A stretch of 64,000 bases of DNA from Dokdonella sp. (GTDB lineage Bacteria; Pseudomonadota; Gammaproteobacteria; Xanthomonadales; Rhodanobacteraceae). A program made the translations under genes and the position numbers. Positions within the stretch are counted from its first letter, which is position 1, and each line of letters opens with the position of its first letter. Where the stretch lies: positions 98,577-162,576 of the forward strand of contig JAHCAR010000008.1 of NCBI GenBank assembly GCA_019634795.1, written 5' to 3'. Positions 3,022 to 27,567 of the stretch are shown piece by piece. Under the pieces are notes generated by a model. It was not told where the DNA came from, searched no databases, and saw only the letters and a program-made list of their open reading frames with translations.

Positions 3022-3576
3022 CGGAGAGGCACGGGACTTCGACTGGCTCAGTCCGAACGGGATTGAGAGGCACGGGACTTCGACTGGCTCAGCCCGAACG
3101 GAGTGGAGAAGCACCAGACTTCGACACGATCACCCATGGCCGTTCGCGCTGAGCCTGTCGAAGCGCATGCGGAGAGGCACGGGGCTTCGACGAGCTCAGC
3201 CCGAACGGATGGGAGAGGCACGGGACTTCGACGAGCTCAGTCCGAACGGAGTTGAGAGGCAAGGGCTTCGACGAGCTCAGCCCGAACGAAATAGAGAGGC
3301 ACGGGGCTTTGACTGCCTCAGTTCGAACGGATTGGAGAGGCACGGGACTTCGACGAGCTCAGTTCGAACGGGATTGAGAGGCGCGGGACTTCGACTGGCT
3401 CAGTCCAAACGGAATTGAGAGGTACGGGACTTCGGCAGGCTCAGCCCGAACGGGTTGGGGAGGCACGGGGCTTCGACGAGCTCAGCCCGAACGGAGTGGG
3501 GAGGCGCGGGACTTCGACTGGCTCAGTCCGAACGGGATTTAGAAGTGCGGGACTTCGACAAGCTCAGTCCGGACGG
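3022..3576. repeat. Tandem array of ~13 units, ~40-41 bp period, core CTTCGAC..GCTCAG.CCGAACGG
   Basis: Cores start near 3036, 3077, 3117 (degenerate), 3184, 3225, 3266, 3306, 3347, 3388, 3428, 3469, 3509 and 3551. Each is joined by a 15-17 bp linker of the type gattgagaggcacggga. An inverted core lies at ~3140-3163. The core is a shortened form of the long palindromic repeat arms near 21-22.5 kb (same CTTCGAC and CTCAG..GAACGG ends). The whole 2815-3596 gap holds this array and no credible gene. Confidence 0.9.
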
Positions 3577-8228: not shown

Positions 8229-9196
8229 GCGTCCCGTCGCCCAAGATCGACCGGCCGACCGTGCTGATCGTCGATGACGAACCGGCGAACGTGCAGGTGC
8301 TCGGCGAGGCACTAACGGGGCAGTGCGACGTGCGATTCACGACGCGCGCCGACGATGCGGTCATGCTCGCTGCCCGCTTCAACGTCGACCTGATCCTGCT
8401 CGATCTCGTCATGCCCGATCGCAGCGGCTTCGACGTGCTTGCGGCGCTGAAGGCCGATCCGGCCTGTCGCGACACCCCGGTCATCATCGTCACCGCGATG
8501 AGCGACCTCCTCGACGAGGAGGCCGGGCTGTCCGCCGGCGCGGTCGACTACATCACCAAGCCGTTCAACCCGTCGATCGTGCGCGCTCGCGTGCGCACGC
8601 ACGTCGAGCTCAAGCGTCAGCGCGACCAGCTCGCCGCACTGGCCGATCTCGACGGGCTGACCGGCATCGCCAATCGGCGCCGCTTCGACCAGCAGCTCGA
8701 CCTGCGCTGGCGCCAGGCCGCGCGTTCGCAGGGCCGACTCGCGCTCGTGATCGCCGATGTCGACCACTTCAAGCAGTACAACGACTACTTCGGCCACGGC
8801 CCCGGCGACCAGTGCCTGCGCGCAGTCGCCGAAGCGCTGAGGTCTGCAGTCAGGCGTGCGGACGACCTCGTCGCGCGCTACGGCGGCGAGGAATTCGCCC
8901 TGATCCTCGGTACCGATGAGCTCGAACGACAACTGAGCGGCCTGCTGCGGGCCGTCGCCACCCTCGCGCTGCCGCATCCGCGCTCGACGAGCGGCGACAT
9001 CGTCAGCCTCAGTCTCGGTGCCATCGAGGTCGCGCCGACGTCCGGACGCGGACCCGATCACGGCCTGTCCGCGGCCGATGCATTACTCTACGCGGCCAAA
9101 AATGAGGGGCGCAATCGCGGGGTTTGTCGCCTGCTCGACGGCTCGGAAGCGCGCATCGTGAATCCAGGGGAGCCCAACGATGACCACACGTACTGA
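8225..9196 (+). CDS. Response regulator with REC and GGDEF domains (diguanylate cyclase)
   Basis: PleD/WspR-like cytoplasmic protein of 323 aa. The receiver (~10-130) has IVDDEP and phospho-acceptor D60 (LLDLVMPD). The GGDEF domain (~145-310) has DGLTGIANRRRFD, the active signature RYGGEEFALIL and an RADD product-inhibition (I) site just upstream, so it should make c-di-GMP from two GTP. ATG overlaps the kinase stop (ATGA), and its 3' end overlaps the TonB receptor start by 17 nt. It is the likely output of the preceding phosphorelay. Confidence 0.93.
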
Positions 9197-11132
9197 ATCG
9201 CACAGTCGGCGGCGAAGCTCGCGCTTGCCGCTCGTCGCCTTGCTGCTCATCGGCATGATGACCGGCACGGCATTCGCCGAGGAGCAGGAGCCGGGGCTCG
9301 ACGATCTGCTGCAACTACTGGAGCAGGAAACCGAACTGGCCACGCAGACCAAGCAAAACGCCGATTACGTGCCCGGCACGGTCAGCGTGCTGCAGGCCGA
9401 CGAGTTGCGACTGCTCGGCGCGCGCACCGCGCTCGATGGCATCGCCCTCGTGCCGGGACTCGACGTCCAGCGCAACCGCTTCGGCGCGGCGACGATCCGC
9501 ATGCGCAGCGTGGACTTCTTCTTCAATGCCGGCAACATCAAGGTACTCGTCGATGGCCTGCCGATCTCGCGCGAGGCCGCGTTCCAGAGCAGCGCCGTCC
9601 TGCTCATGCCGATCGAGCAGCTCGAGCGCATCGAGGTGATCCGCGGACCGGGCTCGGGCGTGCACGGCGACTTCGCCTACATGGGCCTGATCAACCTCGT
9701 CACGCGCCACGACCGCAACCTCGTCGGACTCAACGTCGGCAGCGGAAGCCGCACGAATGCCTATGGCGTGTTCCGGATCGACAACGCACAGAAGGATTTC
9801 CATTTCAGCGGCAACGCCTCGGACTGGCGCAGCGACCGCTACGACACGAGCGACGGAAGGGACAACGACGAGCGCCGAAGCTTCCTCAACCTGCAGGCCA
9901 GCTGGGGCGATATCGGGTTCAAACTGGTCGCCCTCGATCGCGATTTCAGCGGTCTGGTTCCGATCCCGCGCAGGACCGGGCAACCGCCGCCACCGGTTCC
10001 GTATTCGCTGCAATTCCAGCGCGAACGCAGCTACAACGCCGAGCTTCGACGCGAGTGGCACGGCGAAGGCGACGATCGCGGCGCCCTGTGGTTCCAGCAT
10101 CAGTACGCGAACTACGAGCGCGAAGAGGCGAGCTTCGAGGGCCCGCGCGATGAGCTCGGCGGCAATCTGATCCGGCGCTGGGGCCGGCATCTCGTTCTCG
10201 CCCAGCTGCAGGTCGTGCGGCTGAAGATCGACGACGCGACCGACTTCACGGGCAATGGACCACCGGTACTCGCCGATGAGAGCCGGCGCATGACTTCGCT
10301 GACCCTGCAGGACCAGGTCGACCTGCGCGACAACCTGCAGTTGACGGCGGGCCTGCGCTGGGACGATCTCGACGGCATTGACAGCGCGCTGACGCCGCGC
10401 GTCGCGGCGCTGTGGCAGATCAGCGACCATCATCTGCTGAAGGCGCAGTACGCGGAGGGCTTCCGCTCGCCGACCTACCAGGAAAGCTACGTCGGCGACA
10501 GCCAACGCGGACCGGTCGATTTCGAGCGCATCCGGTCGAGCGAAATCAGCTACATCTATCGCACGCCGAGCACGGTCTTCCGCGCGACCGGATTCAGCCA
10601 CAAGATCGACCACATGATCTTTCCGGTCGGCGTTCCGATCGCAGACTCCGAACCCGAGATCGACGGCCAGGGCGTCGAGTTCGAACTGACCCGGCAATGG
10701 ACGCCGTGGCTGCGCACCCTTGCGAGCTGGTCGACGGCGAATGCGATGGATGGTCGTTCCGCCTACATCCCGGTCGGAGGGCAGCCGCCCGTTCGATTCG
10801 GCGCGCCGAGCGTCGGACAGCCCGAGGAACTGGCCAATCTGTCGCTGCTGCTCGGAGAAGGCCGCACCTGGTCAGGCGGCATTCACTGGCAGCATGTCGG
10901 CCGACGCACGAACCGCGGCATCGAAGCCTTCGAGGACGGCTACGATCTGCTCAACCTCGGCCTGAGCTACCGTCCCGAGCGCGAGCCGCGCCTGCGCGTG
11001 GACTTCGGTGTCCGCAACGCCCTCGAAGAACGCGTTACCTACCTTGAAACCGGAACCACCGGCCTGGTCCGCAACAATTATCCGGACCGGTTGTGGAGCG
11101 TGGGAGTGAGCTGGGCGTTTGGCGGTCGATGA
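9180..11132 (+). CDS. TonB-dependent outer-membrane receptor
   Basis: 650 aa with a signal peptide ending A-F-A|EE (residues ~1-33), a plug domain (~55-165, including VLVDGLPISREA, IERIEVIRGPGSGVHGDFAYMG and LINLVTR) and a 22-stranded-type barrel with final aromatic strand (RLWSVGVSWAFGGR). The GGGGAG ribosome site precedes the ATG, which lies inside the end of the diguanylate cyclase gene. No clear TonB box is visible. Receptors next to YfiR-like proteins and cyclases or kinases recur in Proteobacteria, suggesting either uptake controlled by, or signalling to, the c-di-GMP circuit; the substrate cannot be inferred. Confidence 0.92.
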   Translation: MTTRTESHSRRRSSRLPLVALLLIGMMTGTAFAEEQEPGLDDLLQLLEQETELATQTKQNADYVPGTVSVLQADELRLLGARTALDGIALVPGLDVQRNRFGAATIRMRSVDFFFNAGNIKVLVDGLPISREAAFQSSAVLLMPIEQLERIEVIRGPGSGVHGDFAYMGLINLVTRHDRNLVGLNVGSGSRTNAYGVFRIDNAQKDFHFSGNASDWRSDRYDTSDGRDNDERRSFLNLQASWGDIGFKLVALDRDFSGLVPIPRRTGQPPPPVPYSLQFQRERSYNAELRREWHGEGDDRGALWFQHQYANYEREEASFEGPRDELGGNLIRRWGRHLVLAQLQVVRLKIDDATDFTGNGPPVLADESRRMTSLTLQDQVDLRDNLQLTAGLRWDDLDGIDSALTPRVAALWQISDHHLLKAQYAEGFRSPTYQESYVGDSQRGPVDFERIRSSEISYIYRTPSTVFRATGFSHKIDHMIFPVGVPIADSEPEIDGQGVEFELTRQWTPWLRTLASWSTANAMDGRSAYIPVGGQPPVRFGAPSVGQPEELANLSLLLGEGRTWSGGIHWQHVGRRTNRGIEAFEDGYDLLNLGLSYRPEREPRLRVDFGVRNALEERVTYLETGTTGLVRNNYPDRLWSVGVSWAFGGR

Positions 11133-20826: not shown

Positions 20827-20855
20827 AAAAGCGGGCCGTCGGGCGCGCGACGCCC
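20827..20855 (-). terminator. Attenuator terminator of the thiC TPP riboswitch
   Basis: Read on the minus strand, GGGCGTCG pairs with CGAC(G)GCCC around a short GC loop, followed by GCTTTTC. It lies ~10 nt after the aptamer and ~70 nt before thiC, the position expected for transcriptional attenuation. One bulged G in the stem. Confidence 0.65.
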
Positions 20856-20860
20856 ATCAG

Positions 20861-20942
20861 AAAAAGCTCCCTACACCGGTGCAAACCGGATCAGGTTCCA
20901 AGGGACTCTCTCAGCCGGCCAACGCCGGCACCCCCGCTTCAG
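20861..20942 (-). promoter_or_regulatory. TPP riboswitch (THI element)
   Basis: On the minus strand the order of conserved blocks is GGGGTGCC, GGCTGAGAGAGTCCC, GAACCTGATCCGGTT and ACCGGTGTAGGGAGC, which is the thi-box aptamer with its pyrimidine-sensing CUGAGA and the pyrophosphate-side loop. It is 100 nt upstream of thiC on the same strand, with a terminator between. Confidence 0.95.
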
Positions 20943-20997
20943 GCAGGCATTGAAGCACGTCGCCGCGCATGAGGCCAGCCGCTCATGCTTTGGGGTC

Positions 20998-21368
20998 GAG
21001 ACGGGCGCTGTCGAAGCGGCTCGGGGACGTCAGGCACCCTTCGACTCCGGCGCTGCGCGCCTACGCTCAGGGCGAACGGGAGATATTGCACGGTCGCCGC
21101 CCACACGACCCTTCGCGCTTGCCTCCCACCCCACCGTTCGCGCTGAGCACCCCATCCAACCGTTCGCGCTGAGCGTAGCTTGCGAAAGCAAGCGAAGTCG
21201 AAGCGCCTCGGGACGCCAAACACCCTTCGACTCCGGCGCTGCGCGCCTACGCTCAGGGCGAACGGGGGAGGTTGCAGGGTCGCGGGCCGCGCGCTTGTTC
21301 GCGCTGAATACACCACCCAACCGTTCGCGCTGAGCGTAGCTTGCGCCAGCAAGCGAAGTCGAAGCGGC
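20998..21368. repeat. Palindromic repeat field, left part (A and B arms)
   Basis: The arm A consensus starts CACCCTTCGACT, ends CTCAGGGCGAACGG and is ~45 bp (copies 21035-21079, 21221-21265). Arm B is its near inverse, starting CCGTTCGCGCTGAGCGTAGC and ending GAAGTCGAAGCG (copies at 21160 and 21320, with a truncated one near 21133). B followed by A after ~15 bp makes a ~105 bp imperfect hairpin. The last B here (21320-21368) is not followed by A but by the GIY-YIG gene. Apart from the riboswitch, the 20759-21377 gap holds nothing else. Confidence 0.92.
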
Positions 21369-21377
21369 TCGAATCGA

Positions 21378-21674
21378 CTATCGCACTCGCTCGTGTCGAT
21401 GCCGCCCTCTGGCCAATTCGGAGATTCGGCCCCAGTCGCCACGCATCCAGGCCAACTTCTTTGCCCGACTCCATCCCTTGAGCTTGCGCTCCATGACCAG
21501 AGCCTCATAGCGAGTCTCGAACTCCTCGACATGCACCAACTTCAAGGGCCGGCGTGAGGCTGTATAGCATTCGACACCGGCATCATGCTGCTGTAGGCGC
21601 TTGTCCAGGTCGTCGGTGTGACCGATGTACAGGCTCGCGTCCGCGCATTCGAGAATGTACAGGCTGAATGCCAT
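21378..21674 (-). CDS. Single-domain GIY-YIG nuclease (YhbQ/UPF0213-like)
   Basis: 98 aa, the whole protein being one GIY-YIG domain. S-L-Y (Y6) and L-Y-I-G (Y16-G18) are the signature tyrosines, R26 is in DLDKRLQQH, and the metal-binding Glu is in ALVMERKLKGWSRAKKLAW. No extra DNA-binding domain; the C-terminal tail is basic (RGRHRHERVR). The ATG at 21674 follows CGGAG at 8 nt. The frame stays open far upstream through the repeats, but those codons are repeat-derived and not part of the gene. The gene lies precisely between a B arm (21320-21368) and an A arm (21737-21781) of the surrounding palindromic repeat, as if carried in its loop. Confidence 0.9.
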   Translation of the reverse strand: MAFSLYILECADASLYIGHTDDLDKRLQQHDAGVECYTASRRPLKLVHVEEFETRYEALVMERKLKGWSRAKKLAWMRGDWGRISELARGRHRHERVR

Positions 21675-21736
21675 GTGCGGCGCTCCGACCAACTTTGCGC
21701 CAAGCGTATCGCAGTGAGATGGTGTGGTCATGCAAG

Positions 21737-22470
21737 CACCCTTCGACTCCGGCGCTGCGCGCCTACGCTCAGGGCGAACGGGGGGAAGTCGCATGGTCGC
21801 TGCCTGCGCGTCTGCTCGAGTCGAATACCCCTCACTGCCGTTCGCGCTGAGCGTAGCTTGCGAAAGCAAGCGAAGTCGAAGCGTCTCGAGGACCCCATAC
21901 ACCCTTCGACTTCGGCGCTGCGCGCCTACGCTCAGGGCGAACGGACAAATTGCAGGGTCGCCGGTCACCCCATCGTTCGCGCTTGCCGTCACCCACCGTC
22001 GGCGCTTGCCTCTCACCCCACCGTTCGAGCGCGCCCACCCCACCGTTCGCGCTGAGCGTAGCTTGCGAAAGCAAGCGAAGTCGAAGCGTCTCGGGACGCC
22101 AAACACCCTTCGACTTCGGCGCTGCGCGCCTACGCTCAGGGCGAACGGACAAATTGCAGGGTCGCCGGCCACCCCACCGTCAGCGCTTGCCTCTCACCTC
22201 ACCGTTCGCGCTGAGCGTAGCTGCACCAGCAAGGGAAGTCGAAGCGTCTCGAGGGCCCCAAACACCCTTCGACTTCGGCGCTGCGCGCCTACGCTCAGGG
22301 CGAACGGGGGGATGTCGCATGGTCGCTGCCTGCGCGTCTGCTCGAGTCGAATACCCCTCACTGCCGTTCGCGCTGAGCGTAGCTTGCGCCAGCAAGCGAA
22401 GTCGAAGCGTCTCGTGGACCCCAACCACCCTTCGACTCCGGCGCTGCGCGCCTACGTTCAGGGCGATCGG
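21737..22470. repeat. Palindromic repeat field, right part (four complete B-A hairpin modules plus one A arm)
   Basis: A arms at 21737-21781, 21900-21944, 22104-22148, 22263-22307 and 22426-22470 (last one degenerate). B arms begin at 21838, 22043, 22202 and 22364. Every B here is followed by A after ~15 bp. Linkers are also duplicated: 21781-21840 recurs at ~22305-22366 with one visible mismatch, and a stretch after 21944 recurs after 22148. Degenerate half-arms occur near 21970 and 22020. The field ends ~90 bp before pepQ. No gene is credible in 21675-22560. Confidence 0.92.
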
Positions 22471-27531: not shown

Positions 27532-27567
27532 CCGTTCGTCCTGAGCGTAGCGCAGCGAAGTCGAAGG
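27532..27567. repeat. Solo B-type palindromic repeat arm
   Basis: Starts CCGTTCGTCCTGAGCGTAGC and ends GAAGTCGAAGG; same family as the arms at 21-22.5 kb, shorter in the middle. A partial relative lies ~40 bp before it. In the convergent gap after the SDR gene. Confidence 0.8.

Follow-up and report, generated by a model that had tools for sequence, protein, structure and literature searches.

A GIY-YIG nuclease gene within a putative REPIN-like family of tagged hairpin repeats in Dokdonella sp. and its relatives

How does a nuclease gene come to lie in the loop of one member of a palindromic repeat family, and do gene and repeats belong together? This question is raised by a 64,000-nt stretch of Dokdonella sp. 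DNA (contig JAHCAR010000008.1; hereafter the window), in which the gap between thiC, identified by Pfam, and a gene with the look of a prolidase-type peptidase, named pepQ by eye, is filled by two kinds of repeat arm, A and B (21040-22470). A preliminary description of this locus had proposed an autonomous element, with the nuclease inside, surrounded by non-autonomous hairpin copies.

All seven A arms (TTCGACTYCGGCGCTGCGCGCCTACGCTCAGGGCGAACGG; one of them degenerate) and all six B arms of that description were located, in the order A, BA, B-gene-A, BA, BA, BA, BA, with A on the plus and B on the minus strand. The first A arm (21040-21079), which has a truncated B remnant ahead of it at about 21005-21025, is followed by module B1-A2 (21160-21265; B 21160-21202, A 21226-21265), the gene-bearing module, and modules B3-A4 (21838-21944; B 21838-21880, A 21905-21944), B4-A5 (22043-22148; B 22043-22085, A 22109-22148), B5-A6 (22202-22307; B 22202-22243, A 22268-22307) and B6-A7 (22364-22470; B 22364-22406, A 22431-22470, the latter with two mismatches). 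As previously placed, the nuclease gene (21378-21674, minus strand) lies between a B arm on its 3' side (21321-21363) and an A arm on its 5' side (21742-21781), both with the tag outward. The TTCGAC cores of B and A are 378 nt apart in this module and 23-24 nt apart in the other five; the spacing of ~15 bp initially reported is thus uniform outside the gene module, as described, and its value reflects the counting of longer arms. The A-to-A spacing outside the gene is 159-204 bp and, going by this spacing, the module copies adjoining the gene look like local duplicates; we infer that the long open frames crossing the arms are by-products of the repeats.

Beyond the cluster, the related arms noted earlier near 3 kb and 27.5 kb were found to be an isolated 23-nt arm without inner hairpin (3140-3162, minus strand) and an isolated 34-nt arm with a short inner part (27532-27565, minus strand). 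A genome-wide search with the arm consensus, as initially proposed, returned 71 strict cores and none in the reversed control (3.87-Mb genome, 85% complete), and within the window the A pattern gave 7 matches against 0.00 expected from 100 shuffles; a chance origin of the arms is excluded by this expectation and the empty reversed control. No Rfam family was matched over the arms. A TPP riboswitch (Rfam; 20851-20945, minus strand), upstream of thiC, lies beside the cluster. Elsewhere in this genome (C8:98574-99232), seven 34-nt arms follow one another in the same orientation about every 104 bp, an array that differs from the inverted A/B modules.

A and B are one element in opposite orientations. 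Each arm is composed of TTCGACTYCG, an inner hairpin, TACGCTCA, a variable part and GAACGG, a succession that folds into an outer stem, a TCGA/CTC internal loop, the inner hairpin and the GAACGG tag. Covariation was assessed by comparing X4, the four bases that precede TTCGAC, with Y4, the four that follow GCTCA, in the 137 distinct arms of the loci in hand that carry TTCGAC, an inner part, GCTCA and GAACGG, many of these loci having come from a pattern that constrained Y4 and never X4. The inner three pairs of the outer stem were formed in 123/137 arms (mean 39.5 and maximum 57 in 2000 shuffles), with ten different fully complementary triplets. Similar results were obtained for a second, largely separate set of 85 arms near homologous genes, collected without any pairing demand: 70 pair (shuffle maximum 36), and one position further in, 35 of these 70 have a C-G and 29 a G-C pair. 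The inner stems also remain paired across 44 distinct best stems (mean best stem 5.18 vs 3.95 shuffled; 98 arms). As single-stranded DNA, the whole modules B1-A2 (114 nt) and B4-A5 fold far better than their shuffles (z -5.9 and -8.9). The view of the arms as plain stable hairpins was rejected, with z values of -0.8 for each of two window arms and, weakly, -2.4 for an arm stretch of one relative; as single arms thus show no clear gain in stability over shuffled sequence, it is on the covariation that we base the structure claim.

The arms fall into two classes, which differ in the second base of Y4 and in the length of the inner part: G and 17-19 nt (44/47) in A, C and 21-23 nt (50/51) in B. 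Inner-hairpin arms form 59 distinct adjacent pairs, of which 40 are tags-out, 9 tags-in and 10 direct. All 40 tags-out pairs, 15 of which come from this genome, consist of one A and one B; the tags-in pairs comprise seven AB, one AA and one unclassed arm with A, and the direct pairs nine AA and one unclassed arm with A. Solo arms and direct arrays also exist besides the inverted pairs. Around the gene, the nearest 5' arm is A with its tag outward in 13 of 16 family loci, and the nearest 3' arm is B, tag outward and 4-18 nt past the matched coding stretch, in 12 of 16. The exceptions are a short 3' arm (L065), an A arm ahead of B on the 3' side (L069), a B-like 5' arm in the other direction (L075) and short, changed arms on both sides (L077); at L076 the polarity-scoring pattern found no arm. 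With A as the nearest 5' arm and B as the nearest 3' arm, the gene-bearing unit is therefore A-gene-B, a placement that resembles transposon ends, and the scattered inverted units look like these ends without the gene.

The product of the gene, a single-domain protein of 98 aa (P0001) with the motif KGWSRAKK, matches only GIY-YIG (PF01541; 61.2 bits, cut-off 22.6), and NCBIfam returned no family for it. The GIY-YIG residues Y6, Y16, G18, R26 and E62 are present, as they are in nearly all homolog rows of the comparison described below, and we take Y6, Y16/G18, R26 and E62 to hold the catalytic roles of Tyr, Tyr-x-Gly, Arg and Glu. The gene start lies 67 nt from the A core and its stop 14 nt from the B core. 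Five PF01541 matches were found in this genome, and none of these arms were seen at two of the other loci (L003, L004).

Among 117 genomes of the family, 16 carry one close homolog each (E at most 3.8e-27), and arms are present in all 16, compared with 22 of the 101 gene-less genomes and none in the remaining 79 (Fisher p 1.1e-9, kinship ignored; G025, G043 and G097 are close kin). Structured arms adjoin the gene at 15/15 family loci scored, which bears out the expectation that this clade is flanked by the same arms in other genomes; in G043 and G097, two strict arms occur genome-wide and two strict arms flank the gene. The contrary possibility initially raised, that modules are just as common without the gene, applies in part: these 22 gene-less genomes do carry arms, with up to 42 copies, and copy number shows no significant difference between gene-bearing genomes and gene-less carriers (medians 15.5 vs 5.5; p = 0.25). 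Diverged nucleases are accompanied by diverged arms, of GGTTCGACAGGCTCACC type in G086 (52% identity) and TTCGATACCTCA type in G008 (58%).

The association extends beyond the family. A search of 398 genomes sampled from the phylum gave matches (E at most 1e-14) in 30, of which nine hold two or three. A structured arm lies within about 300 bp at 20 of the 29 loci outside this genome, one locus being read per genome (13 on both sides; controls 2/58; the assumed gene position was wrong for L327 and L331, both cut by contig ends). Of nine named loci, four have structured arms, namely those of a Lysobacterales MAG (G042), Aeromicrobium and, on one side only, Nocardioides and an Acidobacteria MAG, and five have none; family and named loci together show arms at 22/44, with 4 arms in all control windows. 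Six plasmid loci divide into three with structured arms (Sphingomonas parapaucimobilis and two Methylobacterium) and three without (Sphingomonas paeninsulae, with a stop in the matched frame, Xanthomonas citri and Radiobacillus). On Methylobacterium plasmids (L300, L302), GIY-YIG homologs are flanked by CCTTCGAGG...CACCTCAGGATGAGG repeats, which are built like the arms except that the inner pair is G-C in place of C-G. Phages and plasmids were considered as carriers and rejected, all 23 phage and 19 plasmid records that match being under 60% identity.

Within the superfamily, the association is clade-specific. These arms were found at 0/14 loci of other GIY-YIG clades (L078-L091), and at 73 loci the presence of Trp68, within KGWSRAKK, went with that of arms: 42 loci have both, 10 have Trp68 and no arm, none has an arm without Trp68 and 21 have neither, i.e. 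arms at 42/52 loci with and 0/21 without this residue (Fisher p 4e-11, kinship ignored and several rows close kin; true positions were used for L327 and L331, L089 was dropped for want of a hit, and L027 and L065 are one genome). On the protein tree, for which L062 (a duplicate of the window) and L068 were left out and in which most of L302 was read in a wrong frame, there are 4 changes of the arm label vs 15.1 in shuffles; a single arm-bearing clade has an AU p of 0.099, a single origin of the label being neither rejected nor demonstrated. Taken together, the arm-nuclease association recurs across genera and phyla, and nuclease and arms very probably form a cognate pair.

We also compared modules at orthologous gaps, for which the preliminary description had proposed a comparison of presence and absence between strains; both states were indeed seen between related genomes. 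The outer flanks of six modules of G083 were searched in six genomes of the genus to which G083 belongs, and four sites (all but L234 and L237) aligned. The module was absent from G042 at three sites, from G070 and G024 at one, from G055 at one and from G096 and G107 at one, and one module is common to G083 and G096 (by eye). At the gap in G024 (L278) orthologous to a G083 module (L238), an inverted pair of TTCGATACCTC type was seen by eye. This pair occupies the same site where G096 shares the G083 module, and its arm type also occurs beside the gene of G008; since the gap holds another arm pair, the type of arm at a given site can differ between sister genomes. When 15 scattered sites of G083 were set against the 15 G042 regions fetched, one was common to both, which fits loss as well as gain. 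Turnover is read here as presence or absence only, the divergence between relatives being too high to read insertion junctions.

The gene itself adjoins the genes for 4-hydroxyphenylpyruvate dioxygenase (HPPD) and homogentisate dioxygenase (HmgA) in 11 of 15 relatives fetched (G097 counted on one flank only, owing to its contig), so that it rarely moves there; it lies in other contexts in this genome, G026, G057, G008 and G086.

Which known system does such a locus resemble? It has several traits in common with REP/REPIN elements and their RAYT (TnpA-REP, REPtron): there, too, hairpins bearing an unpaired tag are used as inverted pairs, copies that lack a gene are numerous, and the repeats also flank a nuclease gene (PMC3116915, PMC8266576, PMC3733652). 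Like a REPIN, its unit consists of two inverted palindromic repeats, as in the 40 tags-out pairs among 59. In contrast to the HUH tyrosine transposase of REP/RAYT, however, the enzyme here is a GIY-YIG nuclease, the conserved outer tag is GAACGG (with variants elsewhere), and every scored tags-out pair joins A to B; the system resembles REP/REPIN with RAYT in its workings, yet its enzyme places it outside that group. IS200/IS605 elements likewise enclose a gene between hairpin ends that differ from left to right, and have derivatives made up of the ends alone, but the gene here does not encode a HUH transposase. Among the matches listed in our literature searches, no paper connects a GIY-YIG gene with arms of this kind or DUF559 with palindromes, and the novelty of the GIY-YIG/arm pairing is accordingly provisional.

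Overall, we read the locus as a REPIN-like element served by a GIY-YIG nuclease in the role that a HUH transposase has elsewhere, and give this reading, in which cleavage, strand preference and movement are inferred, a probability of about 0.55; that the nuclease drives the dispersal of modules we regard as an even bet. The layout originally proposed stands (A-gene-B, 40/40 A+B pairs, recurrence across phyla), and movement by the nuclease is its conjectural part. According to this model, the locus would be one gene-bearing, hairpin-ended copy (A end, gene, B end) among gene-less A/B modules. The nuclease would recognise the arms as folded single strands, possibly with a strand preference, through the TCGA/CTC loop between two stems and the unpaired GAACGG tag, and would nick near the tag once the arms become exposed as single-stranded DNA, e.g. 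on the lagging strand, in extruded cruciforms or in incoming DNA. We know of no GIY-YIG enzyme that joins strands; host repair, acting on ends that have been freed or broken, would duplicate, remove or reinsert entire A-B units, and modules would thereby disperse in REPIN fashion. We count against this reading the 22 gene-less arm carriers, the copies within a DDE-type MITE in this genome (see below), the single site kept in 11 relatives, the ten Trp68 loci without recognisable arms and the five of nine named loci that are armless.

The most serious alternative, which we consider clearly less probable, is a host-serving system in which the nuclease cuts arms in single-stranded DNA, e.g. DNA taken up in transformation, and the arms are not transposons but are kept at many sites for shaping recombination or uptake. 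Its model would be the Ssn family of site-specific single-stranded nucleases with the NTS repeat of Neisseria, reportedly described by Chenal et al. in 2025. Ssn is said to be a single-domain GIY-YIG nuclease with cognate genomic repeats. It is the nearest precedent for the enzyme, belonging to the same protein superfamily and having repeats both beside the gene and across the genome as seen here, and differing in arm sequence, architecture and the A/B ends. The one close homolog per genome in 16 family genomes and the HPPD-HmgA site kept in 11 would suit such a system. On the other hand, module presence differs between related species, the gene has changed context several times, and the inverted pairs are A+B units, whereas a purely host-serving signal needs no paired ends.

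It also seems unlikely that the arms spread by other means and that a selfish nuclease gene, homing by cutting arm alleles, was copied into the loop of a module. The gene does sit inside an A/B pair, and the thiC gap offers a fitting comparison. We examined this gap in nine other genomes of the genus: thiC and pepQ lie within 120 bp of each other in three (G059, G110, G073; arm content was read in these), their matches are 1.7-8.5 kb apart in four (G117, G030, G118, G086), and they are far apart in two. In G059, whose flanks are 92-93% identical, the place of the 1.4-kb gene-bearing cluster is taken by a solo A arm with a truncated B remnant; the gaps of G110 (55 bp) and G073 (119 bp) showed no match to the arms. 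However, the near-fixed polarity of A and B around the gene is unexpected for homing unless both ends are recognised.

We consider it similarly improbable that unrelated transposases spread the arms, through DDE MITEs or RAYT acting on a GTAG-like inner hairpin, with the GIY-YIG gene as a passenger, although a MITE does carry arms in this genome. Two inserts on contig C23, of 2.5 kb and 858 bp, correspond to empty sites in G059 (5 and 24 bp). The smaller insert (about 14904-15761 of L092, the stretch C23:152000-171000) has CCTGATTRGCC-type terminal inverted repeats, and on either side of it stands one copy of an 8-bp target duplication, the two differing at one position (AAATGGTT/AAATAGTT), where G059 has a single copy; it is an ordinary MITE carrying arm modules, whose movement needs another transposase. 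Part of the dispersal in this genome thus needs no GIY-YIG enzyme. Inside an arm module of the larger insert, likewise absent from G059, an IS256-like transposase gene was noted by eye (L092, about 8600-10050). The passenger view is further favoured by CTAC before GCTCA in 79/99 inner-hairpin arms (CTGC in 13), i.e. GTAG beside the palindrome on the other strand. Yet the terminal repeats, found within 150 bp of arms in 5/12 pieces of this genome, occur near arms in 1/15 pieces of G042, 0/15 of G083, 0/5 of G096 and 0/5 of G026, and nowhere in the window, for which reason we rejected the idea that all modules are one MITE. Moreover, short arms and most arms of other families and phyla, by reading, have no CTAC but flank the same nuclease clade, and a passenger gene leaves the Trp68-arm counts (42/10/0/21) unexplained.

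Is this pairing of a nuclease with palindromes an isolated case? The HPPD-HmgA gap was read in 23 genomes without the GIY-YIG gene. It measures 17-34 bp in five (G039, G105, G116, G107, G055), holds a solo B-arm remnant in G095 and other sequence in several, and in seven (G022, G069, G082, G031, G005, G087, G067) carries a DUF559 nuclease gene (PF04480; the G022 protein scores 130 bits), of which G074 has a truncated copy. In G022, this gene (L142:2787-3268) lies between CCCCTCTCCC palindromes, as it does at L144, L147, L150 and L152. A family-wide search placed the best DUF559 clade in this slot at 17/21 loci tested (G068 on one flank only), and CCCCTCTCCC/GGGAGAGGGG cores were present at 15/15 slot loci scored, a count to be read with a repeat pattern whose reversed control was not clean and an inverted-repeat test whose null is uninformative, since the loci share repeats. 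With either gene in the slot, two nuclease-plus-palindrome systems thus alternate at one site, and do so within the same genus in three genera (g22, g5, g18).

A further pairing was found among the other GIY-YIG genes of this genome. Next to an intact gene (L002; C12:85400-85618) lie CGTC-tagged palindromes, intact on one flank and as a diverged copy on the opposite one, and an internally shortened gene (L005; C48:3690-3836) has them on both sides; the palindromes are of two sequences, with 3 and 4 copies in the 231 kb examined. The L002 protein is 36% identical to P0001 over 72 aa and may be a nearer relative of Ssn than P0001 is. A tandem array with a 59-bp period (L002:2208-2854) was observed beside this gene. 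CGTC-tagged REPs are palindromic, tagged repeats like the TTCGAC arms, with a different tag and stem, and have been described as apparently lacking a dedicated enzyme (Di Nocera 2013, PMC3733652); the genes L002 and L005 bear on this open question.

The recurrence of the GIY-YIG/arm pairing in distant bacteria suggests a little-described kind of mobile DNA that relies on a different enzyme. Going further, one might tentatively see in it a new class of bacterial transposable element, which would move as a single-stranded hairpin unit with two distinct ends, employ a GIY-YIG nuclease in place of a HUH or DDE transposase, have given rise to a family of TTCGAC/GCTCA repeats and occur in at least three phyla, and one case of interchangeable nuclease-plus-palindrome cassettes, alongside DUF559 with CCCCTCTCCC and GIY-YIG with CGTC REPs; we consider this wider proposal rather doubtful. 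In any case, a class of intergenic hairpin repeats can now be linked with one particular clade of enzymes, marked by a single residue, Trp68. Should this nuclease move the modules, bacteria would have a second, non-HUH route to REPIN-like elements; if it does not, these proteins would be candidate structure-specific cutters of single-stranded DNA whose sites are written beside their gene.
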